From contig NZ_JAMXAY010000016.1 of the NCBI RefSeq assembly GCF_025460835.1, forward strand, positions 2,616-66,615: a stretch of 64,000 nucleotides of DNA. Direction: 5' to 3'. A program made the position numbers and the translations under genes. The notes below the pieces were generated by a model. The model searched no databases and had not been told where the DNA came from. It saw nothing but the letters and a program-made list of their open reading frames with translations. This DNA is from Parapedobacter soli. Lineage in GTDB: Bacteria > Bacteroidota > Bacteroidia > Sphingobacteriales > Sphingobacteriaceae. The stretch's first letter is position 1, and every line of letters starts with the position of its first letter. Shown piece by piece: positions 39,785-64,000 of this stretch.

Positions 39785-41350
39785 TCACGGCAAGGTCGCT
39801 TCCAATTTCCCCGTTAAAATAGCCTTCAGCTCTTGTACCTTACCTGCGTGAGGCCCGCTTAAATCCACGGACTCCCCTGGATCATCTGCCAGATTGTATA
39901 ATGCCCACAACGGGTCCTCCTTATCCTTTACAAGCTTCCAGTCTCCCGCACGGAGAGCCACGTTTCCCTCGTGTTCCCAATAGATAATCCGCTCATGCGC
40001 CCCACGTGGCTCCTTGCCTTGCAGCAAGGGTACTAAGCTCGTTCCCGGGGAGTTTCCGTCTTCATTTACCCCTGCCGCTTCCAACAAAGTAGGCATCAGA
40101 TCAATGATATGGCCCACTCTATTGGTGAATCGCCCGGGCTGCTCAATACCCTTCGGCCAGTGCCAGATAGATGGGGTCACAATGCCTCCTTCGTGCATAT
40201 ATTTCTTGTATTTCCTAAACGGCGTATTCGATGCGTAAGCCCATGGAGCTTCATACGCAGTGTATGAGCCCGGCTCACCGATCTGCTTGGTTGTGTCATT
40301 CAGTCCCCTTCGCTCTACACTCTCCGCACAGGCACCGTTGTCCGAAAGGAATATGATTAGCGTATTGTCCAACGCTCCTTCTTCCTCAAGTTGGCGAATA
40401 AGCTTCCCGATGTTCTCGTCCATAACCTCAACCATTGCCGCATATACTGCCATTTTCCTAGCCCACTGCTTTTTATCGTCTACTGAATCCCATTCGGGTA
40501 TAGTGGTTGGCCGCTGTGGGAGCACGTAGCGCCTGTCAATCACTTCCATTGCTTCCATCCGGTCAAATCTCGACCTGTGGATGGCATCCCACCCTTGCAG
40601 ATAAAGTGTCTCATACTTGGTTACCACGGAGTCTGGCGCATGCAGCGGCCAGTGGGGCGCGGTGTAGGCAAGGTAAAGTAGAAACGGTCGCCCTGCCGTA
40701 TTACGATCGGTATAATGCTGGTTGATAAACGAGCGGGCCGAATCTGTAAATGCGTTGGTCATGTAAAACCCATCTGCCGGGGGAGTCCATGGATCATCAT
40801 CGCTCACCATCACCCGGCGCCGCTTTTCGTCAACAATCTCGTAATAGCTACTGGCGCCCGAAATCAGCCCGAAGTACCGATCAAACCCCCGTTTCCGGGG
40901 CCAGTGCTGGGGCCGCTCGCCGACGTGCCATTTCCCGGCCATATAGGTGCTGTATCCCGCTTCGCGCAGCATTTCAGCAATCGTCGGCTGGTCCGTGCGC
41001 AGAAACCCCTGATAGGGGCCGGGCGTGATGGGCTCGTCGGCGTAAGTGACCATGTGCCCCATACCCGCGTCGTGCGGGTATTGCCCCGTTAGCAACGATG
41101 CACGTGTGGGGCAGCACCTTCCGGCATTATAAAAGCTCCGGAAGCGTAATCCCTCTTCAGCAAGTTTATCGATATTCGGTGTATGTATTTCTCCACCATA
41201 ACAACCCACATCCGAGTACCCCATATCATCAGCGAGGATAATTACGATGTTGGGGCGATCTGCTGGGCCCTGCTGGGCGAAACTTGGGTTGCAGCAATAG
41301 GCAAGTAGCTGCATCAAAAGCGGGAAAATGGTCGTCTTCATCGGTTTCAA
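39785..41350 (-). CDS. Sulfatase (S1 family), CCPTR active site
   Basis: This 521-residue exported enzyme has a signal peptide (to about residue 25), ILADDMGYSDVGCYGGE with the calcium-site aspartates (Asp41, Asp42), and the sulfatase signature CCPTRASLLTG, in which Cys79 is the expected formylglycine precursor (C-x-P-x-R, with Cys80 at x). It would hydrolyse a sulfate ester outside the cytoplasm. The formylglycine-generating enzyme is not in the window. The start overlaps the stop of the next sulfatase gene by 4 bp. Met4 (41341) is an alternative start. It is the last gene of the sulfatase PUL. Confidence 0.94.
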   Translation of the reverse strand: MKPMKTTIFPLLMQLLAYCCNPSFAQQGPADRPNIVIILADDMGYSDVGCYGGEIHTPNIDKLAEEGLRFRSFYNAGRCCPTRASLLTGQYPHDAGMGHMVTYADEPITPGPYQGFLRTDQPTIAEMLREAGYSTYMAGKWHVGERPQHWPRKRGFDRYFGLISGASSYYEIVDEKRRRVMVSDDDPWTPPADGFYMTNAFTDSARSFINQHYTDRNTAGRPFLLYLAYTAPHWPLHAPDSVVTKYETLYLQGWDAIHRSRFDRMEAMEVIDRRYVLPQRPTTIPEWDSVDDKKQWARKMAVYAAMVEVMDENIGKLIRQLEEEGALDNTLIIFLSDNGACAESVERRGLNDTTKQIGEPGSYTAYEAPWAYASNTPFRKYKKYMHEGGIVTPSIWHWPKGIEQPGRFTNRVGHIIDLMPTLLEAAGVNEDGNSPGTSLVPLLQGKEPRGAHERIIYWEHEGNVALRAGDWKLVKDKEDPLWALYNLADDPGESVDLSGPHAGKVQELKAILTGKLEATLP

Positions 41351-42882
41351 TCGGTTTGGTGCATTCCTTTTATTTCGGCGAGCAGCGCCTGCAATTCCGT
41401 TACTTTAGCTGGAAATTGCTGATATAGATTGGTGGTTTCTTGCGGATCCTTTTCAAGGTTGTACAGCTGCCCGGCGGGTCCACCGGGAACGGCTTCTGCA
41501 CGTTGAGGTTCGGAAAAGCCGCCGGACCCCAGGCCGTCTATCAATTTCCAGGCACCTTTGCGGATGGCAAGATAACCGTTTGAAGCCTGATGGATCACGG
41601 CGCGCTGATCGGGAATGTCGGCTGTCTCTCCCTTCAATACGGGCAAGATACTGTAACTGTCGAGAGCAGCATCTGCCGGCACTCCGGTTTGCAGGATGGC
41701 AGCACAGGTAGCCGAAAGGTTGGTCAACGTCGTCAACGCATCACTCGTTGTACCCGGCTTCACCGCAGCGGGCCAGCGCACGATAAAGGGGATGCGGTGG
41801 CCGCCTTCCCAGGCATCGCCCTTCATTCCGCGATAGGGACCGGTTGCGCGGTGGTGAAAACGTTCGGCAAATTGCGGACGCCAGTAGGGACCGTTGTCGC
41901 TGGTGAAGACGACCACTGTATGCTGTGTCATGCCGAGACTGTCGATTGCCCGTAATACGCGACCTACGGCATCGTCTACCATTTGTACGTAATCACCATA
42001 ATCCCCGGCGTTGGAGGCCCCACGCTGGTCACCGGTAGGCAACCACGGTGTATGGGGGGCGGGAAGGGGAAGGTACAGAAAAAACGGCTGCGGCTGCTTT
42101 GCTTGCTGTTCGACGTATTGCACGGCTTTGTCGGTAAACGTCGGCAATACGCGGTCAAAATTAAATGAAGGTGCCATTTTCCCCGCGCGCCAGAAGGCAC
42201 CGGTGTACCCCGTATTCAGGTCGTTACCCGGTGTGTAGGCGGAGGGAAGCTCAATCAGCGTATCCCGCTCAAGGTAACAGTAAGGCTCCATGTCGAGCGA
42301 GGCCGGGAGTATAAAGGAATAGTCGAATCCATGGCTCAACGGTCCTCCCGTCGGCGGTTTAGTAAAGTCGATGTATTCGGGATTCATGTCTTTCAATAGC
42401 CCATATTCGTTCATTTCCGGATTGCTGGAATCAAGCACGTCACGATGCGCTTCCTTGACCGCCCAATCCAACCCAAGATGCCATTTGCCGATGACGGCGG
42501 TGTGATAGCCTTGTTGTTGGAGCAAGGTACCTATCGTAAAACTACCCTGTGGAATAAGCGTGCGACCATATCCCCGGAGTACGCCGACAGGTAAACGGCT
42601 TCTCCAGGCATACGTACCTGTCATGATCGCGTAGCGGGTGGGCGTACAGACCGACGTTGGGGCATGGGCATCCGTAAACCGCATTCCTTGCTTAGCTAGG
42701 GCGTCGATGTGGGGCGTATTAATCCGGCCGTCGGGATTGTAGATGCTTACATCGCCGTAACCCAGGTCGTCAGCAAGGATGTACACAATATTGGGTTGGG
42801 CTGGCTGTGCCCTGATCGGTTGGACGACGGAGCCAAGCCCAATTAGGCATAGCAGTATATTCTTAAAAAGGGAGTTATTCAT
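41347..42882 (-). CDS. Sulfatase (S1 family, arylsulfatase-like), CTPTR active site
   Basis: This 511-residue enzyme has a signal peptide (about 1-25), NIVYILADDLGYGD with metal-binding Asp38 and Asp39, and SVCTPTRYAIMTG with Cys79 as the formylglycine residue. Further motifs are IGKWHLGLDW and FTSDNGPYW, both part of the active site. It resembles arylsulfatase-A/GALNS-like subfamilies, but the sulfate position cannot be inferred. It is 15 bp downstream of the previous sulfatase and overlaps the next one. Confidence 0.94.
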   Translation of the reverse strand: MNNSLFKNILLCLIGLGSVVQPIRAQPAQPNIVYILADDLGYGDVSIYNPDGRINTPHIDALAKQGMRFTDAHAPTSVCTPTRYAIMTGTYAWRSRLPVGVLRGYGRTLIPQGSFTIGTLLQQQGYHTAVIGKWHLGLDWAVKEAHRDVLDSSNPEMNEYGLLKDMNPEYIDFTKPPTGGPLSHGFDYSFILPASLDMEPYCYLERDTLIELPSAYTPGNDLNTGYTGAFWRAGKMAPSFNFDRVLPTFTDKAVQYVEQQAKQPQPFFLYLPLPAPHTPWLPTGDQRGASNAGDYGDYVQMVDDAVGRVLRAIDSLGMTQHTVVVFTSDNGPYWRPQFAERFHHRATGPYRGMKGDAWEGGHRIPFIVRWPAAVKPGTTSDALTTLTNLSATCAAILQTGVPADAALDSYSILPVLKGETADIPDQRAVIHQASNGYLAIRKGAWKLIDGLGSGGFSEPQRAEAVPGGPAGQLYNLEKDPQETTNLYQQFPAKVTELQALLAEIKGMHQTD

Positions 42883-42897
42883 GAGAGCTATTCATCA

Positions 42898-44421
42898 TTA
42901 GTTCAAACGGCTGTAATGGCTTGTAAATTGTGCGTACACATTTTCCGGAATTGAGAGGTGATCGTCCGTCTGTTCCATATGTGCCCGGAGGCAAGTCAAC
43001 AGTTCGCGCACCCTGCGTTCGTTTTCCCGTTGGAAAGCGAGGTTCATTTTTTCCTGGGGGTCTTCGGTTACCTGGTATAATTCGAGGAATACCTCGTCAC
43101 CAAATAGATCGACGATCAATTTATACCCATCCTTTACGACTGCCCGCTGGAAGTTTCCCAGGGAACCGTTGCCGTCGTATTGCAGGAATATCGGTCGTGC
43201 CTTGTTTGGCTGCTCGTTACGCACCAACGGGAGTAACGACTGGCCATCAAGGTCCTCCGGAACGGGCACACCCGTATAGTCCAATAAGGTAGGCAATACG
43301 TCTACCAGGCTCACCGGCTCAACAATGGCTGTACGGTCAACCGGAAAACCAACCGGAAACCGGATATACAACGGTACGCGGACGGACTCTTCATACATGC
43401 AGTTTTTCTGCCAGAGCGAATGGCTGCCGAGCATTTCGCCGTGGTCGGCAGTGAAAACAATGATAGCCTCATCGTACAGGCCTTCGTCTTTCAGTGCTTG
43501 GACGATCCGGCCCACTTCATCGTCCAGGAGTTTGACCAGTCCGAGGTATCTTGCCCAGGTATCCCGCCATTCATCGCGGGTATACCGGGTGCCCAGAAAC
43601 CCGGTGATGTTATACAATTGCAGGGGAGACTGGCCGGGGTACCACTGGCCCACATTGTCCGGCAGGTCAACCTGTTGGCTGGCGATGGCGGAAAAATAAG
43701 GTTCGGGGATATGGAAGGGTGGATGCGGAGCCAGAAACATGCAGTTGAGCAGCAAAGGCTTGGTTTTGTCGCGCTGTCGGATGGCCCGCTGTGCCTCGTT
43801 GCTGAAATACCGGTCTGTAAAGTAGTCGACGCCCGGGGCGTAAGGTGCCGCAAAAGGAGTTGAATAATACCGGGCACCGGTATAGCGTCCGGATATCTGT
43901 TCTGGAACCAATGCCTTGAAAATGCGTCCTCCGGGCTTGTCCACACCTTCCGATTTCATCCACTGCGCATACGTCTGCTGGGTAATCCATTTGGTTTTAC
44001 TTTCCGGATCCTTTTCAAGCGGATCCTCGGTAAAAAGGTGTTGCTTGCCCACATGCCAGCTGTCCCAACTATCCTCCATGAGGGTATATAGGTTGGGAAT
44101 GCCCGCACTTACATACCCATAATGGGCATCCTGTGGCGCCCACGGGTTAATCAGCGAATGCGTGCGATTGGGATAAAGCCCGGTGAAGAAAGAGGCCCTC
44201 GAAGGCGCACAAAGCGGTGAGGCCGCATACGCGGAAGTAAACGAGACCCCGGCCTCCGCAAGTGCCGAAATATTCGGTGTCATTTCGCCGATGACATCGG
44301 CCCGCAACTGGTCGGCCATGATGACAATAATCGGCGGGGAAGCTTTCTGCTGTCCGGATGACCGGGCAGCGAAAAGCAGCAGGTACCCTACGAGCAAAAA
44401 GGATAAAGAACCGTACTTCAT
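42898..44421 (-). CDS. Sulfatase (S1 family), CAPSR active site
   Basis: This 507-residue exported enzyme starts MKYGSLSFLLVGYLLLF and has IIVIMADQLRADVIG, then SPLCAPSRASFFTG with formylglycine precursor Cys71. VFTADHGEMLGSHSLWQK is the second metal-site motif, found in choline-sulfatase and iduronate-2-sulfatase-like subfamilies. A single LADQ-type N-terminus (MADQ in place of ADD) also fits these. The substrate remains unknown. It is 7 bp downstream of the next sulfatase gene in transcription order. Confidence 0.93.
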   Translation of the reverse strand: MKYGSLSFLLVGYLLLFAARSSGQQKASPPIIVIMADQLRADVIGEMTPNISALAEAGVSFTSAYAASPLCAPSRASFFTGLYPNRTHSLINPWAPQDAHYGYVSAGIPNLYTLMEDSWDSWHVGKQHLFTEDPLEKDPESKTKWITQQTYAQWMKSEGVDKPGGRIFKALVPEQISGRYTGARYYSTPFAAPYAPGVDYFTDRYFSNEAQRAIRQRDKTKPLLLNCMFLAPHPPFHIPEPYFSAIASQQVDLPDNVGQWYPGQSPLQLYNITGFLGTRYTRDEWRDTWARYLGLVKLLDDEVGRIVQALKDEGLYDEAIIVFTADHGEMLGSHSLWQKNCMYEESVRVPLYIRFPVGFPVDRTAIVEPVSLVDVLPTLLDYTGVPVPEDLDGQSLLPLVRNEQPNKARPIFLQYDGNGSLGNFQRAVVKDGYKLIVDLFGDEVFLELYQVTEDPQEKMNLAFQRENERRVRELLTCLRAHMEQTDDHLSIPENVYAQFTSHYSRLN

Positions 44422-44428
44422 GGTTTTG

Positions 44429-45823
44429 CTATTGATAACGCGTTAATAATTCGGGATTCACTTTTCGGAAATAGGCAGTCATTTCGGCTTCTAATTCCTC
44501 GACTTTTCCGGGATTTTTATGGGCAATGTTATGCGTTTCACCCCGGTCTTCCTTGAGGTTGTACAATTCCACCTTGCCGGATTTCCAGAATTTCAACAGT
44601 TTGTAGTCGCCATTGATCACCGCTGAGTGGGGATACCCGTCGTTGTAGCGGTGGAAAATGAGTGCGTTGTTTGTGCGCGCAACGGGTTTGCCCGTTTCGC
44701 CCCGGAGCATGTTCACGAAGCTGCCGCCATCGGTGTCCAGGTTACTGGAAGCGGGGGTTCCACCGGCCAGCTCGGCAAACGTAGCCAGCAGGTCCCAACC
44801 GACAATTGGGGCGTCACATTGGCTACCGGCCTCAATACCGGGACCCCTGACCAGGAACGGCACCCGTATGCCCCCTTCGTAAAGTGTCCATTTTCCGCCG
44901 CGAAGGGGATAATTCCGCATCGGCTTGGGAAACTTCGATGGGTGATCCAGCCGGTTCCGCACTGCAGGCATGAATTCGGTGGCGCCATTGTCGGCCATGA
45001 AAAAGACATACGTGTTTTGTGCAATGCCCAGCCGTTCGAGGGTATCCAACACGGCCCCGATGCTGCGGTCGAGATCTTCCAGCATACCTGCGAACGCAGG
45101 GTCGTCATGCTTCTTTCCCCCAGGTTTCTTCTGGTATTTCTCATACGACCCGGCAGTCGTCTGCTTCTCTATATGCGTGGCATAGTGCGAGATTTGTAGG
45201 AAAAAGGGAGTTCCGGCTTTCGCGTGGCGTGTCATGAAATTGCCCGCCCGTGCCGCGAGTGTATTCACCCGTTTCGGATCGCCCGTGATGAAATAATCGG
45301 TCCACTTGTCCGTTCCCTCGATGGCAAAGTTGCCGTTTTTGTTGCCGGTATCGCCGTCGCTTTCGTCATAGCCTGCATCTTCCGGCGAAAACCCGGCACG
45401 CATATCCCACTTGCCGAAATGAGCCGTCTGATAGCGACTGTTGATGCCTTTGAGTACTTGGGGCAAGGTTGGGTAGTTCCCTGCAGTTGGCTGGTAATTT
45501 GCTCCAAACGACTCATCTCCCTGCCGGGCGGGTGTATGGCCAAAGAGGATGCTTCGCCTGGAGGGCGAACAGATGGACGCGGAGGCATAAGTCCGGGAAA
45601 AACGAATGCCTCCGGTAGCTAGCCGATCCAAGTTGGGGGTTTCGTGGTAATCACTGGACGAACGCGGGTCGGTTTTGTCCATCGGCATGGAGAGCGACGA
45701 CCAACCGAGGTCATCGGCCAAAATGAATATAATGTTTGGCGTTTCGGGTTGCTGCGCGAGTACATGCGTGGAAAACCCTGCTAACACTATCGAAACAAGT
45801 AAAAACGATTTTCTTGGGATCAT
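44429..45823 (-). CDS. Sulfatase (S1 family), CSPSR active site
   Basis: The ATG at 45823 begins the signal peptide MIPRKSFLLVSIVLAGFSTH and gives 464 residues; upstream in-frame codons have no such start. The active site reads ICSPSRRSILFG with Cys85, and IIFILADDLGW supplies metal-binding aspartates. VFFMADNGATEFMP and GKWDMRAGFSPED are the other motif regions. It starts 10 bp after the PhoD-like gene, in the middle of the four-sulfatase run. Confidence 0.93.
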   Translation of the reverse strand: MIPRKSFLLVSIVLAGFSTHVLAQQPETPNIIFILADDLGWSSLSMPMDKTDPRSSSDYHETPNLDRLATGGIRFSRTYASASICSPSRRSILFGHTPARQGDESFGANYQPTAGNYPTLPQVLKGINSRYQTAHFGKWDMRAGFSPEDAGYDESDGDTGNKNGNFAIEGTDKWTDYFITGDPKRVNTLAARAGNFMTRHAKAGTPFFLQISHYATHIEKQTTAGSYEKYQKKPGGKKHDDPAFAGMLEDLDRSIGAVLDTLERLGIAQNTYVFFMADNGATEFMPAVRNRLDHPSKFPKPMRNYPLRGGKWTLYEGGIRVPFLVRGPGIEAGSQCDAPIVGWDLLATFAELAGGTPASSNLDTDGGSFVNMLRGETGKPVARTNNALIFHRYNDGYPHSAVINGDYKLLKFWKSGKVELYNLKEDRGETHNIAHKNPGKVEELEAEMTAYFRKVNPELLTRYQ

Positions 45824-45833
45824 AATTTGTGGT

Positions 45834-47276
45834 TTATGAGTGAGCATATTGCGAGTAGGTGTTGACAATTTTGCCATCCACATCGCAGTGATCGAATTGG
45901 ATATAGGGGTTGCCGTCTTTCCGGTATACGCGGACCTGCAGAAATCCGCCCTTAACCCGCAGGAAACGGTGTTCCGGCCGTATATCATCCGGCTTCCACC
46001 CTTGCGCATGGAAATCGCTGACCGGGCCCGAACCGAATTCCATCAAGCCCGTTCCGGGATCTTCAGAAACATATTGCCAGTGCCTGTCGCCGCTGACGAT
46101 GAACAACCGGTCTATGGTTGACAGGTACTGCCGCAGCCATGTCCCCTCGGTTTGGAAATTTCTATTGGCGTGGTTATCCTTTTTGGTATCCCGGTCGGGG
46201 CCGACAATCGGTGTCGGTGAAATCAGCAGTTTGAATGTGGCGTTAGAGGCCCCTATGGTCTCCTTGAACCATGCTATCTGCTCTCCACCCCAGATGGTTT
46301 TGCCGGGTCCGTCGGGCATATCATTGTTTGACCGGTATTCGCGCGATTCGATCAACCATATTTGCAGGTCCTTACCCCACCGATAGGTCCGGTAGGGTTT
46401 ATCCCGGAGCTGAACTTGCTCCTGCCACACCTTCAGGCCATCCGTATAAGAAAGCTCACCATAGGGTTGCGCCGTGGGATCGACATCGTTTTTCAGCAGG
46501 TCATGGTCGTCCTTCAGCATGTAGATAGGGACCTCACGGCAGAAATCCCGTATCGACGGTCTTGAGTTCATCGCATGCCACTTATGCCTTGCCTTTTCCC
46601 TCGTGGTAGCCAATGGCCCGGGTTTATCATAATAGACATAATCACCTGTATGGGCGTAAAAATCCGGCCGCAGTTGGCGCATGCTGTCATACACCCTAAA
46701 TCCGCGTTCCTCGTCGTCATAACTCCAGAAGTATTGGCAAGTGCAGGCCACCAAGCATACCGCAGCAGCTGTTTGCGGGTCCGGTGCCGTTCGGAAGGAG
46801 CCCTTGGCATAGTTGGAAGTCCCATTCATCGATGCGCGCGCTTCGACCTCGATATGGTAACTGGTATTGCTTTCCAGGTTGTCTATGGTGATCCTGACCG
46901 TGTAATCGTCGTCAGCTATGGCTGCATGCCAATCCGAGCGGAAAGTTTGTATACCGTCGCCGAGGAGTGTAACCCGTACAAACCCAGCCGCACCGGCAAC
47001 GGCCCCGTCCATTTCCTCCACGGGTTGGTTTTCATCGAAACCAATGGGGTGCCTGAATACCTCTTCCCTCCGTTTGTGCCGGATGGGAACGGGTGCTTCT
47101 TGACGGCATAATCGAGTCCAGAAAATAGCCGACCGGTCAGTCACTTCCGAAATTTTAAATCCGGTTGTCAAATAAACCACCGGGGAAATGGCTGCGGCGA
47201 GTTCATGGAAGGAGGGGAGCGCCATCATGCCGAGCCCGGTTTTCTTCAGGAAGTTTCTTCTACTCTGTTTACTCAT
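45834..47276 (-). CDS. PhoD-like metallophosphoesterase, Tat-exported
   Basis: The start at ATG 47276 gives 480 residues with a Tat signal, SRRNFLKKTG (5-14). A beta-rich PhoD N-terminal domain (about 33-165) precedes the metallophosphatase domain: HTGDYVYYD at 209-217, KDDHDLLKNDVDP at 255-267 and VSGDRHWQY further on. PhoD enzymes cleave phosphomonoesters and diesters in the periplasm or outside, using calcium and iron. Its place between sulfatases suggests a phosphorylated substituent on the target, but PhoD homologues are also recruited for other esters. It is 52 bp from the upstream sulfatase stop. Confidence 0.85.
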   Translation of the reverse strand: MSKQSRRNFLKKTGLGMMALPSFHELAAAISPVVYLTTGFKISEVTDRSAIFWTRLCRQEAPVPIRHKRREEVFRHPIGFDENQPVEEMDGAVAGAAGFVRVTLLGDGIQTFRSDWHAAIADDDYTVRITIDNLESNTSYHIEVEARASMNGTSNYAKGSFRTAPDPQTAAAVCLVACTCQYFWSYDDEERGFRVYDSMRQLRPDFYAHTGDYVYYDKPGPLATTREKARHKWHAMNSRPSIRDFCREVPIYMLKDDHDLLKNDVDPTAQPYGELSYTDGLKVWQEQVQLRDKPYRTYRWGKDLQIWLIESREYRSNNDMPDGPGKTIWGGEQIAWFKETIGASNATFKLLISPTPIVGPDRDTKKDNHANRNFQTEGTWLRQYLSTIDRLFIVSGDRHWQYVSEDPGTGLMEFGSGPVSDFHAQGWKPDDIRPEHRFLRVKGGFLQVRVYRKDGNPYIQFDHCDVDGKIVNTYSQYAHS

Positions 47277-47328
47277 TTCACTCAAAAATCATTGTCCATA
47301 ATTGTCTTCCTTCAATTTCATCCAAGTT

Positions 47329-54626: not shown

Positions 54627-55975
54627 TTGGTGAATAAATCTGTCTCGGTTGCCCGCATTTCATTTGAAAAGGGGTCTTGTTGTTCTTCCATCCACACGGC
54701 CAGGGCCCGGTACATGGTTACTATCGTTTCACGGAGTTTTTTGTCGTCGGCAAGGTTGGTTAACTCGTAAGGGTCCTCCAGTAGGTCATATAACTCAAGT
54801 GCAGGCCGATACCGGTAGTTATTCGCCCGGGCTACGCCAGCGTCCCCACTTAACACCCATGAGTCCAGCACCATCCTAGCGTCGATTATGGCGCGCTCAT
54901 CCGGCTCATCCATCGCCTTCAACGAAAAGCGATTGCCTTGCCGGAGGTTCACAATCAACTTATGGCGTCTGCCCACAATTGTCCGTATGGGGTATTCATT
55001 TGCTCCCTGCACACCCAGATTGGTATAACAGCCATACACATTGTCATTTACTGCAACCTCCTGCTGCTTCAGGATCGGCACAATACTTCTGCCGTCGAGC
55101 GTGTCGGGGAAACCGGCACCTGCCATCTCCATTAGGGTGGGAAGGATATCGACCATGCTCACAAGCGCATCGGACGTGGTGCCCGGCGCTACGACCCCTG
55201 GCCATTTAACGATTAGGGGGATACGTATCCCCTGTTCGTAAAGCGTCCATTTAGCGAACGGGAACGCTGGGCCATGATCACTTAGATACAACTGAATACT
55301 ATTCTTGCCAAACCCGTAATGTTCCAGCCAATAAAGTATTGAACCTATTTCCTGATCGGCCAAGGCCACATGGTCGTAATAAGCAGCGGTGTACTGTGCT
55401 GTTTCGGGTGTCTGTGGCATCCATCGTTTGGCAGCCACGTTACCATGGCCGCCTTTGAGGTTAAAGTAGGGTTGGTGTGGCGCGTTGAGCGATACAACGA
55501 GGCAGAACGGCTGTTCATGCCTACGGCTCAGGTAGCCCGGCACTTCATGGCGTTCCATATAAACAAATGGGAAGGCTGCCTCGGGCTTAACGTGGACCTT
55601 TCCCGCAAGTATCACTTCATAACCCGCAGCTGAAAAATAATGTGGTAACGACCGGATATCAGGGTGTACCGACCCGTGGTTACGGTCGCATCCGTTACGG
55701 TGCGGATACAAACCCGTAAACAGTGCCGACCGAGAAGGTGCACATACCGATACCGGTGTATATGCGCGGGTAAATACCATCCCCTCACGAGCCAGCTGGT
55801 CGATAACCGGTGTTGGTACAACCTCGTTTCCATAACATCCGGCATCTTCCTGTCCGTGGTCGTCCGAAAGGAAGATGACGATATTTGGCTTTTGTTGAGC
55901 ATGTGCCCCGAGGGGAAATGCCAGTAGCAAACCAAGTAGCACCCCTACTATATGACAACCCTTTGGTACAATCAT
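54623..55975 (-). CDS. Sulfatase, heparan N-sulfatase-like (S1 family), CAPSR active site
   Basis: This 450-residue enzyme has a signal peptide (about 1-26), NIVIFLSDDHGQEDAGCYGN with metal-binding aspartates, and SVCAPSRSALFTGLYPHRNG with Cys78 as the formylglycine precursor. The short length and the NGCDRNHGSVHPDIRSLPHY segment after the signature fit the SGSH-like subfamily, in which N-sulfate as well as O-sulfate hydrolases occur. It lies between GH92 (9 bp upstream in transcription) and the PL22-like gene (4-bp overlap). Confidence 0.91.
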   Translation of the reverse strand: MIVPKGCHIVGVLLGLLLAFPLGAHAQQKPNIVIFLSDDHGQEDAGCYGNEVVPTPVIDQLAREGMVFTRAYTPVSVCAPSRSALFTGLYPHRNGCDRNHGSVHPDIRSLPHYFSAAGYEVILAGKVHVKPEAAFPFVYMERHEVPGYLSRRHEQPFCLVVSLNAPHQPYFNLKGGHGNVAAKRWMPQTPETAQYTAAYYDHVALADQEIGSILYWLEHYGFGKNSIQLYLSDHGPAFPFAKWTLYEQGIRIPLIVKWPGVVAPGTTSDALVSMVDILPTLMEMAGAGFPDTLDGRSIVPILKQQEVAVNDNVYGCYTNLGVQGANEYPIRTIVGRRHKLIVNLRQGNRFSLKAMDEPDERAIIDARMVLDSWVLSGDAGVARANNYRYRPALELYDLLEDPYELTNLADDKKLRETIVTMYRALAVWMEEQQDPFSNEMRATETDLFTK

Positions 55976-55984
55976 CCTAATCCA

Positions 55985-58411
55985 TTACCTGATTTCACCC
56001 GTCGACATGGAAGGCGGAGCCCCACCTGCCGACGCCCCCCAATGCATGTTGGGCACGTCTCCCATCTCCAGCCCTAAAACCCCGCCTTTTACCAAGGTAT
56101 CATGCGGTATCCATACCCGATTTAGTTCGTTGTCATTCAACTTAGCCGATTGGATATACCGGTTTGCGGCGCTATTGTTATTGGTTTCGATCACAAAACT
56201 CCCCCCGGGATAATAATCGGGGTTGAGGTGAAGTGTTACTTTATCGAATATGGGACTGCCGATTTCATATACCGGATCGGTTGACACCCCTCCATCGGTC
56301 GCAAAAAGCCCAATCTTGAAAAGTACAGCCAATGCGCCCATCAGTCCCTGGTCTTCGTCGCCACTATAACCGTAATCGGGGGATATACCGCTATATACCT
56401 CACTGATAATCTCTCTGGTCCAATGTTGGGTAAGGTAGGGGGCGCCGGCATAATTGAAAAGGAAAGCGGTGTGTATGCTGGGCTGGTTACCATAATTGAT
56501 GTATACCTCCCTATTTCGGGTTTGTGTTTCTACCGAATGTGATTTGCCCGATGTGAAATGGTGGGTCTGGGCTACACGGAACACACTGTCGAGTTTGTTG
56601 CGAAACTTGCCCGCACCCCCCATCAGGCTGATAAGCCCCGCGACATCATGGGGCACAAACCACGTATATTGTGCAGCATTGCCTTCTACCCATCCGTTTT
56701 CATACGTGAGCACGTTGGCGGGTGACCGCCATTGGCCCGTACTGTCTTTCACCCACATCCACCCGAGCTGCCCGTTCCACAGATTTTTGTAGTTCCCGGC
56801 CCGACGGCGGAACAACTGTTCATCGGTAGCCTTACCAAGTGCATGTGCCAACTGCGACAGGGCAAAGTCCTGGTAAGCATACTCCAGCGTTTGCGCGGCC
56901 CCGTTTTGATGGAACCCGTACCGGGTGTCACTAAGTGGGTAAGGCACGTAGCCTTGTGCAATGTATTGTTCGATCCCGCCACCTTTGAATGTATGGTGCT
57001 CGTAACCCGCTTTGCTCATCAACCCTCCCGGCAGGTGGTTTTTACGCATGCCTTCGTATGCTTTCTCCACGTCGAAATCGCGGATACCTTTCATGTATGC
57101 ACTTACGATAAACGGGGTGGATGAGGCACCAGTCATGACAAATGTGTAATTCCCCCCGGCCGGTCCACGGGGAACCAACCCGCCATCGTCATACATCAGC
57201 AACATGGAGTTGACAAACGAATGGGTGACCTCCGGATAGACCAGATGCCACAAGGTGTTGATGGTCCATTGCGCTCCCCAGAAAGAATCCGAATTGTGGT
57301 GGTTGAATTTGGGTTTGCCATTTTCATCGAGCGGTATCTGGCCTATCCGGGGCTCGTCACCGGTCATGTCACAGTATTTGCCATTTACATCACTGATGAT
57401 CCGCCTGCCCTGCAGGGCATGCCACAAATCGGTATAAAACCGCTGACGCTCGTCGATGGTGCCCCCTTCGATTTCAATCCGGCTCAGCCATTTATTCCAA
57501 TCGTCTCTCGACTCACGGACAACACGGTCAAAATCCCAATGGGGCAGCTCGGCTGTAAGGTTGAGTCGGGCTTGCTCAGTACTGACGTAAGAAATTGCCA
57601 CTTTCATCTTAACAACTTCATTTTCTGCGGTAGCATAGCGGATAAAAACCCCGGTATGCTTACCCTCCACCCGGTCCCTTCCGGTCAGTAATGCTCCGTC
57701 TTTCCATCCTCCAAACTCCTGGAATGGCTTATCAACCTGCGCAACGAAGTACACGGTTACGGGCTTAGGCCTGCGTACGGTGGCCCCCATGATCGCATAG
57801 CCCTCAATTTCATGGTCGCTTACTTTCCGGGTATGGCCCCAGTCGGTTTCCGAAGGGCCTAACGCTGTCGTGAAATCAAACAAGATATGGCTTTCATCCG
57901 CCTCGGGGAATGTATACCGGTGAAAACCCACCCTTGTCGTGGCGGTAAGCTCGGCCGTGACCCCATAATCGTCTAATACGATACTATGATAGCCGGCCTT
58001 AGCAACCTCTTTTTCATGCGTATAGGCAGATCCGTATACATGTGGGCCCAAGTGACCTTTAAACGGCCCAGTGGTAGGAAGTACCGGTATACCCGATAGT
58101 TGCCAGCCATGGACATGGCTGAAGCACCTGATGGTATCCTGATGATACCGATAACCCGTTCCCCAGTCGCCATCAACTTCCATATCCGGACTCAAATTGA
58201 CCATACCAAAAGGCCGTGTTGCCGAGTTGAAGAAGAACCAACGGGAGTTGGCAGCATCTACAACGGGCACGACGAGGTCTACGGGCTCGCTATTCCCGGT
58301 ATAATACGCTGACGGGCTACCATCGCCGGGCCTATCACATGCTAAACACATGGTAAGCCAAAACACGCCGAACCAAAAGGCCACGATCAAGAACACTGGT
58401 TTGGACATCAT
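55985..58411 (-). CDS. GH92 family alpha-mannosidase, lipoprotein
   Basis: This 808-residue protein has a lipoprotein-like signal (MCLAC, Cys25). The GH92 fold is shown by FGMVNLSPDMEVDGDWGTGY, FSHVHGWQLSGIPVLPTTGP, the helical-barrel motif HHNSDSFWGAQWTINTLWHL, then GGLVPRGPAGGNYTFVMTGA, and the C-terminal YGYSGDEDQGLMGALAV. The last motif is the family's Ca-site and catalytic aspartate loop (often GNDDxGQMSAW), here GDEDQGLMGAL. GH92 enzymes are Ca-dependent, inverting exo-alpha-mannosidases of various linkages. Presence in a sulfatase and lyase PUL points to an alpha-mannose-containing sulfated polymer, or to a GH92 relative with another specificity. Confidence 0.92.
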   Translation of the reverse strand: MMSKPVFLIVAFWFGVFWLTMCLACDRPGDGSPSAYYTGNSEPVDLVVPVVDAANSRWFFFNSATRPFGMVNLSPDMEVDGDWGTGYRYHQDTIRCFSHVHGWQLSGIPVLPTTGPFKGHLGPHVYGSAYTHEKEVAKAGYHSIVLDDYGVTAELTATTRVGFHRYTFPEADESHILFDFTTALGPSETDWGHTRKVSDHEIEGYAIMGATVRRPKPVTVYFVAQVDKPFQEFGGWKDGALLTGRDRVEGKHTGVFIRYATAENEVVKMKVAISYVSTEQARLNLTAELPHWDFDRVVRESRDDWNKWLSRIEIEGGTIDERQRFYTDLWHALQGRRIISDVNGKYCDMTGDEPRIGQIPLDENGKPKFNHHNSDSFWGAQWTINTLWHLVYPEVTHSFVNSMLLMYDDGGLVPRGPAGGNYTFVMTGASSTPFIVSAYMKGIRDFDVEKAYEGMRKNHLPGGLMSKAGYEHHTFKGGGIEQYIAQGYVPYPLSDTRYGFHQNGAAQTLEYAYQDFALSQLAHALGKATDEQLFRRRAGNYKNLWNGQLGWMWVKDSTGQWRSPANVLTYENGWVEGNAAQYTWFVPHDVAGLISLMGGAGKFRNKLDSVFRVAQTHHFTSGKSHSVETQTRNREVYINYGNQPSIHTAFLFNYAGAPYLTQHWTREIISEVYSGISPDYGYSGDEDQGLMGALAVLFKIGLFATDGGVSTDPVYEIGSPIFDKVTLHLNPDYYPGGSFVIETNNNSAANRYIQSAKLNDNELNRVWIPHDTLVKGGVLGLEMGDVPNMHWGASAGGAPPSMSTGEIR

Positions 58412-58414
58412 AGT

Positions 58415-59809
58415 CTACAACTCTTTTATTTTGATGCTTCTGAAACAAACTAAATCACCGTGGTCTTGGAGCAGGATATGCCCCGATGGGGCACGGCCAA
58501 AATCAGGCACCTCGTGAAACTTGCTCGATGCGACCAAATCTTTGAATGCTTGCGATCCGCGGTCGTATTCCAGCACTTTGATATGGTTGAGCCAATGCTC
58601 CACGCGGTTTCCCCGTACCACAATTTTAGCCCTGTTCCATTTCCCCGGTGCATTTACACGCTTGTTTTTACCAACCTCGTGCAGATTTCCGGCTGTAATC
58701 AGATCATACAGTGAGCCGATTGTCCGGTTTCCATCCCTACCGTTCTTGGCATCCGGATGGTTCTGGTCGTCCAGGATCTGGTATTCGAGCCCTAACCCGG
58801 TGCCGGGTGTCTGCCGGAGCTCTTCTACCACGAGGTATTTGACCCCACTGTTACCTCCCTTATTCACCAAGAAGTCCCATTCCAGCTCGAAGTTGGAAAA
58901 CTCCCGTTCGGTAATGATATCGCCGCCTTTGTTCGGGTCGCCTTTTGTGGATGGTAGTACGCACAGTACCCCGTTTTCTATTTTCCATCCCGTACGTGGA
59001 AAACTTGCGGCGTTTGCCCCGCGCCATCCTGCCGGGGTTTTACCGTCCCAAAGCAAGCGCCACCCCTCGCTAATCTGGCGCTCGCTAAGTTGATTGACCA
59101 AATAGTTTACCTCTTCTACACCGTCATCCCGCTGCCAAAGGTCAGCGGCAAGATCTTCCGTCTTGATGCGTATATTACGCCATTTGACCGTCAGTCCGTC
59201 CTGGCTCTTCTGCTTGATACCATGCACCTGTAAGGCAATGAATCCTTCGGATGTTAAATCTACCACTAAATCGGCGCATTGGATACCATTAACCCACGTC
59301 CGGATCGCATTGCCCACAGCCTCGATGCGATAGCGGTTCCACTCACCGCTTTTGAATGCTCCCCTTCCTTTTTCATTGATGGATAGCGGATACAACCAGC
59401 CTTGCCGGGCTTCGTCATAAACCCCGCCGCTCCAAGCCCGTTCGGATGGGTCAATCTCCACCTGATAGCCGTGCACACGGCCGTTGTTCACTTCAGGAAG
59501 GCTCAGGCTCCGGATCTGTATTCCGGAGTTGAGGCCCGCTTCGATCATTACCTCCAGCTCAAGGATGAAATCAGAATACGTTTTCTTGGTACAGAGGAAG
59601 GTATTCGGCGTATTTAATTTCGAGATGCCGACAATGGCGTTGTCTTCCACTTCATACGTTGCTGTTCCGTTCTTTACTTCCCATCCATCTAAATTTTCTC
59701 CGTTAAACAATGTATACCATCCCGTTTGTTGTGAAGCGGCGGGAAAGTGGCAGGCAATGAGGATTAACCCTGCCAGGTATAGAGACTGTCGGTAGTTGCC
59801 TATATTCAT
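58415..59809 (-). CDS. Tandem DUF1080 (3-keto-disaccharide hydrolase) protein
   Basis: The ATG at 59809 gives 464 residues with a signal peptide (to about residue 26). Two DUF1080 concanavalin-like domains follow: about 30-215 (GWYTLFNGENLDGWEVKNGT) and about 245-464 (WRLLWDGKTPAGWRGANAAS). The family includes 3-keto-glycoside hydrolases, and many members occur near sugar oxidoreductases. Here no 3-dehydrogenase is seen, so glycan binding or a different hydrolase activity is as likely. It starts 63 bp after susD and the GH92 gene begins 3 bp after its stop. Confidence 0.85.
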   Translation of the reverse strand: MNIGNYRQSLYLAGLILIACHFPAASQQTGWYTLFNGENLDGWEVKNGTATYEVEDNAIVGISKLNTPNTFLCTKKTYSDFILELEVMIEAGLNSGIQIRSLSLPEVNNGRVHGYQVEIDPSERAWSGGVYDEARQGWLYPLSINEKGRGAFKSGEWNRYRIEAVGNAIRTWVNGIQCADLVVDLTSEGFIALQVHGIKQKSQDGLTVKWRNIRIKTEDLAADLWQRDDGVEEVNYLVNQLSERQISEGWRLLWDGKTPAGWRGANAASFPRTGWKIENGVLCVLPSTKGDPNKGGDIITEREFSNFELEWDFLVNKGGNSGVKYLVVEELRQTPGTGLGLEYQILDDQNHPDAKNGRDGNRTIGSLYDLITAGNLHEVGKNKRVNAPGKWNRAKIVVRGNRVEHWLNHIKVLEYDRGSQAFKDLVASSKFHEVPDFGRAPSGHILLQDHGDLVCFRSIKIKEL

Positions 59810-59872
59810 AAGTGGTCTTTCTATGCGCTTTTTATGTCGCGTATTCACTGGGGGTATCCCCAAGTAATACCG

Positions 59873-61498
59873 TCAATATCCGAAATTCTGTGGGAAATTA
59901 TTTGTCGTCCGTTCAATTTGTGACAACGGTATGGGCCGTAGCAGGTGGAAATCCTGGATGGAGTTAGCCACGGAAGCCCGTTCGTTGTGCAGCTTCACGC
60001 GCTCAATCAATGTCCCTGTCCTTTTCAGTTCGGTCCACCGTGGCTCCTCGCCGCAAAGTTCCCTAGCACGTTCATCGAGAATATCATCGATGGTTACCGA
60101 GGAGAGCGCCATTGCGTCTTTCATTCCGGGAGTGCCGGCCCGGCTACGGACGGCATTGATATGTTCAAGGGCTTTGGATTCATTCCCACTCTTAAGGTAT
60201 GCCTCCGCTGCAATGAGATGGGTCTCCGCCAAACGGAATACAAAAAGGTCGCGAGTTCCTTTATCATCACCGTAAGGTAAGCCCGACTCGAAAAATTTCC
60301 ATATCGGAGGGAACTGGGTGAATTTTGACGTATTCATATAATACTCATCGTAATTAACGGCAATATAATCCGCGGCAGATATCCGTTCGGCACTCCATGG
60401 CTGATTCCATTCAGGAAAGAAAAGCACCGTATCCCCCACCTGTTTATCGCCCTGGTTTACGGTAGCATAGAAAATCCGTAGAAACGTAGCATCATACCGG
60501 CTGTCTGCCTCGGTATCATAGAGGCTGGCGAGGTACCTCGAAGGCACATAACGCGGCTGCTGCCGATTATAAGTGCTCGATCTGTCCATACCGATCAGGC
60601 CGTCAACGCCTTGGCCAAAAATCGAATGGGCATCGTTACCATCGCCATTCAACACGGTATTGCTACTATACTGGACTGAAAAGAGGATCTCGTTGTTTTC
60701 CTCGTTACCTTGTTTGAATACATCCCCAAACGTGCCGAGCAATTCATATTGCCCCGAATTGATAACAGCAGTTGCGTTATCTGCTGCTTTTGCGAAATCA
60801 TCCGACGCAGCAAAATCGCGATATCCCCGGGTAAGGTACACCTTGGCCAGTAGATGCTGCGCTGCGCCTTTTGTAACCCGCCCGTAGTCTTCCTGCGTGA
60901 GCGGAAGCTGCGTAACCGCATTCTCCAAGTCTTGGACGATCTGGGCATAAACCTGCTCTTCCGCAACACGTTCGGCACTTGTCACCACTTCTGTAATTTC
61001 GTTGAGCGGTAGGGGAATCTCGCCAAATTGCTGTACGAGATAGAAGTAATAAAGTGCCCGGAGGAATTTGATTTCAGCCACTCGTGCCATCTTAATACCC
61101 TCATTCATAGACACCGTCGGTGCGCGGTCGACAGCGGTATTGGTGCGGGCTATAGCGGTATAAAGCATATTCCACCATGTTTCTACGGCTTCGGCCTGCG
61201 GGTTAATGGCCTGAGCGGAGTACTCATTGAGCCCGTTTAACCCGCCTAGTGCTGGGTCACCTACCTGCGTAAACACATCGGTACCCAGCAACACCAAATC
61301 TCGTTGTTTATGGATATCCCTAAGCGGGGCATAAGCCGATTTAACCAAATCTTCAAAACCCTGTTCATCAACATAGTAGTTATCGGTCGTGCGGTCTGAA
61401 ATGAGGTCCTCATCCAATAAGCTACTACAAGACGCCATGCACAAGACTATCCAGGTTAACAATAGGATGCTGGATATATTTTTTATAATCGTCTTCAT
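59873..61498 (-). CDS. SusD/RagB family outer-membrane lipoprotein (sulfatase PUL)
   Basis: This 541-residue protein has a lipoprotein signal (MASC, Cys24) and the SusD scaffold: DRTTDNYYVDEQGFEDLVKS at about 36-55, the TPR-like helices around 140-230, and the C-terminal motifs HINAVRSRAGTPGM and LCGEEPRWTELKRTG. It would hold oligosaccharides over the SusC channel. It lies 70 bp after susC and 63 bp before the DUF1080 gene. Confidence 0.95.
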   Translation of the reverse strand: MKTIIKNISSILLLTWIVLCMASCSSLLDEDLISDRTTDNYYVDEQGFEDLVKSAYAPLRDIHKQRDLVLLGTDVFTQVGDPALGGLNGLNEYSAQAINPQAEAVETWWNMLYTAIARTNTAVDRAPTVSMNEGIKMARVAEIKFLRALYYFYLVQQFGEIPLPLNEITEVVTSAERVAEEQVYAQIVQDLENAVTQLPLTQEDYGRVTKGAAQHLLAKVYLTRGYRDFAASDDFAKAADNATAVINSGQYELLGTFGDVFKQGNEENNEILFSVQYSSNTVLNGDGNDAHSIFGQGVDGLIGMDRSSTYNRQQPRYVPSRYLASLYDTEADSRYDATFLRIFYATVNQGDKQVGDTVLFFPEWNQPWSAERISAADYIAVNYDEYYMNTSKFTQFPPIWKFFESGLPYGDDKGTRDLFVFRLAETHLIAAEAYLKSGNESKALEHINAVRSRAGTPGMKDAMALSSVTIDDILDERARELCGEEPRWTELKRTGTLIERVKLHNERASVANSIQDFHLLRPIPLSQIERTTNNFPQNFGY

Positions 61499-61568: not shown

Positions 61569-64000
61569 CTAAAACGATATGTTCGCCCCGAACAGATAGG
61601 TGGCAGAGCTTACCCCCATATTGAAGGTGTTTTGCTCGCTCCATTCCGGATCAAACCCGGCATAATCAGTGAATATCAGCGGATTATTCGCCGTCAGGTA
61701 TAGCCGCAGGCCAGACATTTTCAGCCGGGACAATAGGTTCGGTGAAAATGAGTATCCCAGCGTAATATTCTGTACACGCACGAAAGAAGCATCCACATAG
61801 GCCTTCAGTTCTTCACGTGCCCGGCCACCGGTATTATTGGGCGCAGGCCACTCGTTGGATGGATTGGTCTCTGTCCAGTAGTCCACATTCAGTTTGTTAT
61901 ACCGGCCATTCCACTCCCTTGCGAAGTTGGAATGGTGAAACGGACTGTACACCATCGAACCCTGCCGTGAGTATAACATGAAGGAAAAATCAAATCCTTT
62001 ATAAGCAAAGGTATTGGTCATTCCGCCGATCCACTTGGGGAGCGGGCTGCCTATGATCTGTTGGTCGGCTTCGGTAATCCGTCCATCGTTATTGAGGTCC
62101 TTCACCTTTACATGGCCCGGCTCCGCACCATATTTTTCGGCTTCTCCCGCTTCATCCAGCTGCCATATTCCGTCGAAGACCTCGGCATAATGCACTTCTA
62201 TCGGCTGGCCGATGAACCACCTGTTTCCTACATCATCCTGGTTGTCTCCATAGAGCTCCAAAATCTTGTTGTTGTTTTTAGCGAAGGTGATGGTCGTCTT
62301 CCACGAGAAATCCCCGGTATGGACATTCACGGTGTTGAGCGCCACTTCTACCCCTTTGTTGGACGTAGAGCCCACGTTGGCTGTAATAGCGCTAAAACCT
62401 GTATGTTGGGGGAGTGCCCGGTTAAGGATCAGATCTTCGGTTTTCCGATTATAAATATCCACAGAGCCCGAAATCCGGTTCTTGAAGAGTCCGAAGTCTA
62501 TCCCGAGGTTGATCTCCTTGGTTCTTTCCCATCCCAGCGACCTGTTGGCGATGGCCCCCGGCGCAAAACCCAATGCAGCATTCCCACCCCAATCATATAG
62601 CGTTTGGGCGATAGCAGCTTGGGTTGAATAAGGAGCAACCGCATCATTACCGACTACACCATAGCTCAAGCGGAACTTGAGGTTAGAAAGAGGCTTCACA
62701 TCGTTGAGGAAATCCTCCTCACTCGCACGCCATGCCAGCGCAGCGGACGGGAAGAAGGCCCACTTATGACCTACGGCCAACTTGGATGAACCATCGGCAC
62801 GCCCCGTCAACGTCAGCTGGTACCTATCGTTAAAGGAGTAGTTGAACCGGCCCATATAGGAAAGCAACGTCCATTCAGTCAGATAGCTCGACACCCCGTC
62901 AATATTGCCGGCAGAACCGGTATTGTACCAAAAAGAATCAAATGGGAGGTCCAGCACGTCTTGTGAAGCCCCTTCGTTGCGGTTCACCACGATGCTGTTG
63001 GCCAATACTCCACTGAATGAATGGGACTTTACTGTGCGGTTATAAGACAACACATTGTCTAACGTATAAGAAAGGTTGAGCTCATTGCTGTATCCCCCTC
63101 TCCCGTTCCGGGTCCCTGTATTTGCTTTCGAATATTTCCCGGCAAAGGTTCCATTACGTATACTTTCCAGGTATGGCGAAATGGTAGACCGGAACGACAG
63201 CCCATCAAATAAGCTCAGTTCTACAAAGAGATTGCCGAACACCCGGAAATTCCGGAATTCGTCTTTGACGTTCAATGGGTCGAAAAGAGCATTGGGTGTC
63301 TGGCTATCACTGGTAGTTGGCCAAAACAACAGCTCGCCATTCTCATCATAAGCATCACCTGTTGGGCGTAGGCGATAAGCGCTGCGGAGTGCCTCGTTCG
63401 ACCCCTGGTCTTGTACGCTATAGGAAATATAAGTAGATGTGCCCGCATTGATCCAGTTATTTATTTTGCCATCGATATTGGCTTTCAACGTCAGGCGGCT
63501 GAACTCTTCGGCAGGAACATTCCCCTCTTCTTTCAGGTAACCTGCTGAAAAGAAATGTCGCGAATTTTCACCACCTCCCGAAAGTGAAACATTGTGGCTA
63601 GATTGCATGCCATTCTGCAGTAGGAGGTCTATCCAGTCTGTATATGTTCCGTTTGCAATGTTCTGCTGTTCTTTTTCATCAAAATAGCGATTGCCCCCAT
63701 TTTTCAGGACTTCGTTGAAATTAGCAACAAATTGGGGGCCATCCATCATGTCGGGCAAGTTGGTAGGTGTTTTCATGCCCACGTAGCCATCGTATGCGAT
63801 CCGGTTCTTGCCGGGTATCCCCTGCCTGGTGGAAACGATGATCACCCCATTAGACCCCCTCGATCCGTAGATGGCTGTTGCCGAGGCGTCCTTCAGGACA
63901 TCAATTTTCTCGATATCAGCCGGATTTAAGGAATTCAACGATCCACCCATCACGCCATCAATCACTACCAACGGCTCATTACCCTTACCGATGGAGTTCA
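61569..64000 (-). CDS. SusC/RagA TonB-linked outer-membrane protein, 5' end outside the window
   Basis: The gene is open to the right edge; 809 residues and the stop are visible, and the reading frame continues past base 64000 (NSIGKGNEPLVVIDG is read from the edge inward). The visible part starts within the plug domain (LVVIDGVMGGS, LNPADIEKIDVLKDASATAI, then YGSRGSNGVIIVST) and includes the whole barrel, with DLNNDGRITEADQQIIGSPL and the C-terminal aromatic strand YLFGANISF. It is the transporter of the sulfatase PUL. Signal peptide, carboxypeptidase-like domain and TonB box should lie just outside. Confidence 0.94.
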   Translation of the reverse strand, partial: NSIGKGNEPLVVIDGVMGGSLNSLNPADIEKIDVLKDASATAIYGSRGSNGVIIVSTRQGIPGKNRIAYDGYVGMKTPTNLPDMMDGPQFVANFNEVLKNGGNRYFDEKEQQNIANGTYTDWIDLLLQNGMQSSHNVSLSGGGENSRHFFSAGYLKEEGNVPAEEFSRLTLKANIDGKINNWINAGTSTYISYSVQDQGSNEALRSAYRLRPTGDAYDENGELLFWPTTSDSQTPNALFDPLNVKDEFRNFRVFGNLFVELSLFDGLSFRSTISPYLESIRNGTFAGKYSKANTGTRNGRGGYSNELNLSYTLDNVLSYNRTVKSHSFSGVLANSIVVNRNEGASQDVLDLPFDSFWYNTGSAGNIDGVSSYLTEWTLLSYMGRFNYSFNDRYQLTLTGRADGSSKLAVGHKWAFFPSAALAWRASEEDFLNDVKPLSNLKFRLSYGVVGNDAVAPYSTQAAIAQTLYDWGGNAALGFAPGAIANRSLGWERTKEINLGIDFGLFKNRISGSVDIYNRKTEDLILNRALPQHTGFSAITANVGSTSNKGVEVALNTVNVHTGDFSWKTTITFAKNNNKILELYGDNQDDVGNRWFIGQPIEVHYAEVFDGIWQLDEAGEAEKYGAEPGHVKVKDLNNDGRITEADQQIIGSPLPKWIGGMTNTFAYKGFDFSFMLYSRQGSMVYSPFHHSNFAREWNGRYNKLNVDYWTETNPSNEWPAPNNTGGRAREELKAYVDASFVRVQNITLGYSFSPNLLSRLKMSGLRLYLTANNPLIFTDYAGFDPEWSEQNTFNMGVSSATYLFGANISF

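Follow-up and report, generated by a model that had tools for sequence, protein, structure and literature searches.

The window, a 64,000-nucleotide stretch (G000:C68:2616-66615) from the 5.17 Mb draft genome of Parapedobacter, contains most of a sulfatase-rich polysaccharide utilization locus (PUL) with a polysaccharide lyase of family PL15. The locus is real, orderly, and conserved, and its gene set was not found described in a literature search limited to open-access listings; as far as these listings show, it is undescribed. The PL15 lyase, a GH105 unsaturated uronyl hydrolase, and the nearest relatives of the sulfatases, taken together, indicate a sulfated glycan of the galacto type that contains uronic acid, and the locus is probably dedicated to a heteroglycan in which uronic acid occurs and galacto-configured sugars bear sulfate esters. 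An undescribed glycan of this kind is ranked first among the candidate targets, with a glycosaminoglycan, a glucuronomannan, and a sulfated arabinogalactan protein (AGP) as its rivals. The surprise lies in the separate clade of the lyase, in a sulfatase core shared with another bacterial family, and in the soil setting of the genus.

The PUL lies on the minus strand, fills positions 39785-64000 of the window, and runs on to 66841 in window numbering. The SusC gene, truncated by the window end, is followed by genes for FecR (64951-66204) and an extracytoplasmic function (ECF) sigma factor (66254-66841), after which the next frame, judged by eye, is excinuclease-like. SusC-like and SusD-like genes lie side by side here, and genes for carbohydrate-active enzymes run in the same direction, which identifies a Bacteroidota SusCD-type PUL. 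In order of transcription, its genes in the window are as follows.

61569-64000, continuing to 64829 outside the window, minus strand: SusC-like TonB-dependent receptor with an STN domain (Pfam)
59873-61498, minus strand: SusD-like surface glycan-binding protein (Pfam)
58415-59863, minus strand: tandem DUF1080 (PF06439) protein (Pfam)
55985-58411, minus strand: GH92 protein (Pfam; Glu576 and DED 685-687 present)
54623-55975, minus strand: sulfatase S1-A (Pfam; nearest solved structure human-type SGSH, 4mhx)
53235-54626, minus strand: Prop, a putative PL22-like β-propeller (profile-profile comparison; Tat-like N terminus by eye)
51457-53238, minus strand: GH88/GH105 unsaturated uronyl hydrolase fused to DUF1961 (Pfam; nearest structure 4ce7)
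48900-51467, minus strand: PL15 lyase, DUF4962 plus heparinase II/III C-domain (Pfam, catalytic residues, tree)
47329-48903, minus strand: sulfatase S1-B (nearest structure an S1_8A galactose-2-sulfatase)
45834-47285, minus strand: PhoD-like phosphoesterase (Pfam; Tat-type N terminus by eye)
44429-45823, open frame to 46009, minus strand: sulfatase S1-C (nearest S1_16)
42898-44421, minus strand: sulfatase S1-D (nearest structure 7oz8, S1_46, acting on 3-sulfated N-acetylglucosamine (GlcNAc); weak)
41347-42882, minus strand: sulfatase S1-E (S1_15-like; 6-sulfated galactose or N-acetylgalactosamine (GalNAc))
39785-41350, minus strand: sulfatase S1-F (S1_4-like; nearest 7all, BT4683, 3-sulfated galactose)

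Pfam assigns PF00884 to six of the window proteins, and all six carry the formylglycine motif Cys-x-Pro-x-Arg, which places them in sulfatase family S1. The remaining assignments are DUF4962 with Hepar_II_III_C, Glyco_hydro_88 with DUF1961, PhoD, the N-terminal and catalytic domains of GH92, two PF06439 stretches, and SusD. The initial annotation, which had listed six sulfatases with formylglycine cysteines, a DUF4962/heparinase lyase, a GH105 fusion, GH92, a tandem DUF1080 protein, and PhoD, is thereby confirmed; its closely packed minus-strand run was right in spacing and strand and stopped short only in ending at 64000. Neighboring genes in the window overlap by 4-11 bp or are separated by 3-70 bp, provided that S1-C starts at about 45823, a start taken from a signal-peptide-like stretch, as the full open frame (44429-46009) overlaps the PhoD gene. 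Because these gaps and overlaps are small, the spacing suggests one operon under trans-envelope sigma control. P. pyrenivorans and P. indicus share the gene order from SusD to S1-F, with protein identities of 72-97%, and the arrangement is therefore not a product of chance; the compared stretches of these two species end short of SusC, FecR, and the sigma factor.

The PL15 lyase and the sulfatases

The window lyase has the DUF4962 and Hepar_II_III domains and the catalytic His, Tyr, and His residues of family PL15, a triad that is retained in all eight PL15 proteins of the module formed with its relatives in other genomes. In the PDB it matches the exo-heparinase BIexoHep (6lja, 340 bits) and an oligo-alginate lyase (3a0o, 157 bits). 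Domain architecture and triad are thus common to the window protein and the PL15_2 exo-heparinases, BIexoHep and the Bacteroides finegoldii PL15. The PL15_2 reference used here is the B. finegoldii protein from a HepC-bearing locus, which serves as a stand-in and may differ from the assayed BFexoHep; the window lyase is 27.9% identical to it, and the G032 copy is 79.4% identical. Most of the substrate contacts listed for BIexoHep in PMC7904915 are absent. Ser226, Arg230, Arg233, Asn336, and Ser554 are replaced by Lys, Asp, Lys, Gly, and Gly, and Arg332, Arg579, and Lys755 by Lys, Lys, and Arg. Asp70 and Arg648 fall in gaps, with the gap columns and the mapping of Asp70 being unsure. Gln340 is the sole identical contact among those that could be mapped, and Arg757 could not be mapped.

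In a midpoint-rooted tree of 37 rows, with seven unresolved forks and, outside the module, two long branches, the eight module proteins split off on one branch (support 100/99). Outside the heparin-locus clade and without most of the BIexoHep contacts, the window lyase does not belong to the exo-heparinase subfamily, and a heparin reading of the lyase was set back on these two grounds. It does not belong to the PL15_1 alginate exo-lyases either, from which it is separated by clade and by identities of 21-23%; the PL15_1 references, an Agrobacterium protein annotated as alginate lyase and a Falsirhodobacter DUF4962 protein, are so classed by annotation, context, and the genus named in PMC11921355. 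Elsewhere, several PL15-type genes were observed together in one cluster: genome G139 has four such genes (L024/L025, G139:C8; one spans both stretches), and B. finegoldii has three DUF4962 genes grouped with genes for GH88, for a sulfatase, and for a hybrid sensor (L149).

The six sulfatases were placed in subfamilies by their nearest solved structures rather than by SulfAtlas models. The nearest solved relative of S1-B is S1_8A, that of S1-C an S1_16 enzyme, and that of S1-F the S1_4 enzyme BT4683; for S1-E, the top-ranking structure carries the name GalNAc-6-sulfatase, with S1_15 members next. As reported in PMC12549532 and PMC10154620, S1_8A acts on 2-sulfated galactose, S1_16 on 4-sulfated galactose or GalNAc, S1_15 on 6-sulfated galactose or GalNAc, and BT4683 on 3-sulfated galactose. 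Galactose or GalNAc is the common denominator of the nearest characterized enzymes for four of the six sulfatases (B, C, E, and F), which the initial annotation did not mention. Since another S1_4 member, BT3487, is listed in a table of PMC10154620 as acting on 6-sulfated galactose, the sulfate position is not fixed by the S1_4 subfamily. The genome also holds six matches to PF03781, the domain of the formylglycine-generating enzyme, and 28 matches to the sulfatase model, some of which are pieces of one gene.

The sulfatase genes at the downstream end may have a DNA history of their own. At about 41000-45600 lies a tract that takes in the beginning of S1-F, the whole of S1-E and S1-D, and the greater part of S1-C. 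Measured in 300-base bins, its DNA identity to P. pyrenivorans and P. indicus is 85-99%; identity is 59-87% in nearly all bins outside it, with one bin at 57000 reaching 89-92%. Fourfold-site differences are 0.11-0.20 in S1-E and S1-D versus 0.42-0.66 in the other measured genes. The high identity of the tract and the low fourfold-site differences suggest that the sulfatase block was exchanged recently by homologous recombination.

A core shared with another bacterial family

Orthologues of the lyase (80-81% identity) occur in three of the nine genomes of the genus, including the one studied here; the other two may be of the same species as stretches L031 and L032, those of P. pyrenivorans and P. 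indicus. Some PL15 match was found in 28 of 399 genomes of the family, those three included, and the remaining ones reach at most 34% identity among the matches listed, bar one 81-residue piece at 37%. At the level of the class, 10 of 395 genomes have a match, the best outside the genome itself being G300 (44%), a member of another family. In that family, 10 of 195 genomes match at E ≤ 0.001, and G300, G890, G784, and G911 do so at 37-45% identity.

In G300, G890, and G784, a PL15 protein with 42-44% identity is accompanied by counterparts of S1-B, S1-C, S1-D, and S1-E with 50-57% identity. When compared with 13 sulfatases of the Parapedobacter genome (the six of the window and seven others), these counterparts were closest to the respective window gene in all 12 comparisons, with no more than 32% identity for the two hits listed next. 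The order PL15-B-D-E is recognizable in the loci of the other family, with C inserted or moved. S1-F was dropped from the core, being surpassed in G890 and G784 by two other sulfatases of the Parapedobacter genome, and S1-A has no specific orthologue in the three genomes. The other components are distributed unevenly. A tandem DUF1080 homologue (49-52%) and a separate DUF1961 protein (58-59%) occur in G890 and G784, neither being found in the 80 kb of G300, and an orthologue of Prop (57%) and a PhoD homologue (39%) occur only in G890 among the three loci. In G300, GH92 has an orthologue (65%) and the GH105 domain a counterpart (39%); the G890 copies of both are weaker, that of GH92 being a 29% paralogue, and GH92 is absent from the 40 kb of G784. 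The G911 contig, 8.4 kb long, carries PL15, S1-C, and S1-A-like and S1-F-like sulfatases.

The PL15 clade and S1-B, S1-C, S1-D, and S1-E may, as a tentative proposal, represent a portable core with which two families degrade an undescribed sulfated, uronate-bearing, galactose-type glycan available on land. If this is true, the clade would define a new subfamily of PL15 acting on a new substrate, and sulfation would be extended by one more glycan beyond polymers of marine and animal origin. Next to the core, G300 encodes GH2, GH28, GH3, an esterase, a second GH92, GH43, two GH27-like (Melibiase_2) proteins, GH95, and GH88; GH27- and GH28-like genes adjoin the core in all three loci of the other family, and GH95-like genes do so in G300 and G890. 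Two further proteins of about 720 residues were observed (L022:10214-12379 and L033:15235-17403), the first without a Pfam match at E ≤ 10 and the second without one at 0.001. The first has relatives in the loci of G890 and G784, and both are possible unclassified glycosidases.

Candidate substrates and a proposed degradation route

Several observations weigh against the galacto-type heteroglycan. No classical endo-hydrolase was recognized among the locus proteins; GH92, Prop, PhoD, S1-A, DUF1080, and the GH105 domain vary across the core loci; and the window S1-F is the best match in only one of three comparisons (G300), with no specific orthologue in G890 and G784. The sulfatase specificities, taken as they are from the nearest solved structures, serve only as leads, and those of S1-A (nearest SGSH) and S1-D (nearest a 3-sulfo-GlcNAc enzyme) do not indicate galactose. 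The loss of heparin contacts in the lyase is uneven across the module: G890a and G911 keep Arg332 and Arg579, and G890b and G784 keep Asn336.

Some of the contrary evidence favors a glycosaminoglycan PUL variant, in which heparin/heparan or a chondroitin-type chain would be attacked by PL15 as an exo-lyase after endo-lyases encoded elsewhere. The closest solved relative of the window lyase is an exo-heparinase; the NCBIfam HepB model matches it, if weakly (28 bits, with the cut-off at 600); S1-A is nearest to SGSH; and a GalNAc-containing, glycosaminoglycan-like target is left within reach because the relatives of S1-C and S1-E also act on 4- and 6-sulfated GalNAc, respectively, with a GalNAc-6-sulfatase as the best match of S1-E. 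This variant is nevertheless considered unlikely, given the distance of the lyase from the heparin-locus clade and the loss of most of its contacts. Moreover, the PL15-type enzyme is the only lyase that Pfam finds among the locus proteins, PL8, PL12, and PL13 being absent from a set that excludes the rest of the genome, which was not searched for endo-lyases, and the orthologous core adjoins GH27- and GH28-like genes.

Equally improbable is a sulfated AGP or a related land-plant or green-algal glycan. The terrestrial character of the genus, whose species come from straw, soils, compost, plant stem, and sewage according to PMC7500135, is in its favor, as are the galactose-type sulfatases of the window locus and the GH27- and GH43-like genes that adjoin the core in G300. 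According to PMC8406133, the sulfatase BpS1-8 is encoded in a B. plebeius PUL that AGP induces, and rhamnose-glucuronic acid caps are taken off by GH145 and GH105. Against it, none of the backbone enzymes GH43, GH16, GH35, and GH30 was recognized among the proteins of the window locus, for which GH145 was not tested.

A sulfated glucuronomannan from diatoms or a similar source, in which GH92 would trim α-mannose and PL15 and GH105 would handle glucuronate, is given the same low standing. The GH92 protein retains its catalytic acid (Glu576) and, at a distance of 111 residues, the DED motif (685-687); Glu533 and Asp644 of BT3990 have the same spacing (PMC5930347, PMC12858847, PMC10167667). The DED motif is said in PMC12858847 to be typical of α-1,2 enzymes; the His-Glu pair of such enzymes (584-585 of BT3990) corresponds in the window protein to Val-Glu by spacing and to His-Ser by alignment, in a loop that aligns poorly, and the G890 paralogue carries His-Glu at the exact BT3990 spacing. 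The intact acid and base, the fusion of GH92 to DUF1080 in two species, the G300 orthologue, and a GH92 that releases 6-sulfo-mannose in a diatom sulfated-mannan cascade (PMC13063451) speak for such a target; the inconstancy of GH92 across G784 and G890, the lack of any GH76 or GH99 Pfam domain among the locus proteins (GH195 was not tested for), the fact that none of the six sulfatases has its best structure match in S1_11, and the terrestrial genus speak against it. Relatives of the window GH92 are also frequent, occurring in 28 of 395 genomes of the phylum at E ≤ 1e-150, its own and G300 included; a query against viral contigs returned none. Outside the G300 family, 14 loci hold relatives with 41-68% identity (12 viewed over 40 kb and two, on short contigs, over 6 and 18 kb), and none has a PL15 at E ≤ 1e-15; some hold sulfatase genes 24-36% identical to those of the window. 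Being common in PL15-free loci and not constant in the core, GH92 was downgraded as a substrate marker, and as the only gene that points to mannose, it does so weakly.

The view in the initial annotation of a PUL for a sulfated uronic-acid glycan unlike the heparin, chondroitin, and ulvan sets agrees with the separate clade of the lyase and the lack of any other lyase Pfam family. Its α-mannose prediction is weakened to the extent that, for all its intact acid and base, GH92 has an orthologue in only one of the three core loci of the other family, and the diatom or algal glucuronomannan does not stand as the leading target. The PL22-like propeller it proposed is retained as putative. Pfam, the PL22 model PF14583 included, returns nothing for Prop even at E ≤ 10, and PF14583 has no match in the genome itself; the link to PL22 comes from a profile-profile comparison alone (94.6% probability, E 6.6e-8, 225 columns) based on thin alignments of seven Prop relatives and two PL22 proteins (effective sequence numbers 2.5 and 1.5). 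Two unrelated propeller-type proteins, compared as single sequences with the Prop profile, scored 0.4% and 0.1% probability. An AlphaFold model of Prop from three sequences had a mean pLDDT (per-residue confidence score) of 34.6 and was not used. A paralogue in the same genome (28-31%) matches generic PD40 propeller repeats and sits in L159 (G000:C112:34001-54000) near an S1-F-type sulfatase, a BNR protein, SusD, and an IS110 transposase.

The tandem DUF1080 protein and GH92 form a single frame in P. pyrenivorans and P. indicus, of 1234 and 1233 residues, respectively (L031:1774-5478 and L032:1778-5479); in the window, they are separated by a TAG codon and a signal-peptide-like stretch. Because a 3-keto-trehalose hydrolase and an endo-xanthanase are among the proteins related to DUF1080 (PMC9007349, PMC10881899), the DUF1080 protein is a candidate for the first cut, although this assignment is a guess.

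For the favored sulfated heteroglycan, a route can be proposed, with predicted enzyme activities and compartments, a predicted bias toward galactose, and predicted regulation. The glycan would be bound by SusD/SusC, and a signal through the STN domain would free the ECF sigma factor from FecR and turn the operon on. A first cut would be made outside the cell, possibly by the DUF1080 pair, and the oligosaccharides would be imported via SusC. Periplasmic sulfatases would strip 2-, 3-, 4-, and 6-sulfates, PL15 would cleave the chain at uronic acids through β-elimination, and GH105 would take off the unsaturated uronate, with the PL22-like propeller perhaps finishing short uronates. GH92 would remove a terminal α-linked sugar, probably mannose. 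If the heteroglycan assignment is right, the five orthologous enzymes would be a compact set pointing to a sulfated glycan not yet described, and the lyases would be a PL15 subfamily of new specificity.

A neighboring SusCD locus lies at 21210-34445 of the window, with a PfkB kinase and a sugar transporter (Pfam) and two GH32-like proteins and one β-lactamase-like protein (by eye), and probably serves fructan. By its position, the sensor kinase at 34755-37589 would belong to this adjacent GH32-type locus.

Comparison with known systems

Carrageenan contains no uronic acid. The λ-carrageenan cascade of Pseudoalteromonas distincta has S1_8 and S1_15 sulfatases acting on 2- and 6-sulfated galactose in common with the subfamily assignments in the window locus and differs in its GH150, GH110, and GH2 enzymes (PMC12549532). 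Similar to the window locus, the Polaribacter/Ochrovirga PUL for diatom sulfated α-1,3-mannan combines GH92 with sulfatases in Bacteroidota; it is described, however, with GH195, an S1_11 sulfatase, and a homomannan as substrate, in place of the PL15, GH105, and other sulfatase types of the window (PMC13063451). The ulvan PUL of Formosa agariphila shares the combination of a lyase, GH105, several S1 sulfatases, and an extra uronate enzyme, which in that case is the dehydratase P29_PDnc (PMC8511951). The likeness extends to GH105, as the window protein is nearest to 4ce7, an unsaturated 3S-rhamnoglycuronyl hydrolase. In contrast to the ulvan PUL, the window locus has a lyase of another family and neither a GH78 nor a GH39 Pfam domain; models of the ulvan lyases (PL24/25/28/40) were not run separately.

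The sulfated-AGP PULs of B. plebeius resemble the window locus in having a sulfatase (BpS1-8) and GH105 and in a galactose-rich sulfated target, which for the window locus is predicted. In these PULs, as described in PMC8406133, the lyase activity resides in GH145 and PUL13 has two sulfatases, whereas the window locus has PL15, six sulfatases, GH92, and DUF1080. The same report raises the question of sulfated glycans in land plants, and the Parapedobacter locus, if assigned correctly, would possibly be evidence of the use of sulfated glycans by soil bacteria.

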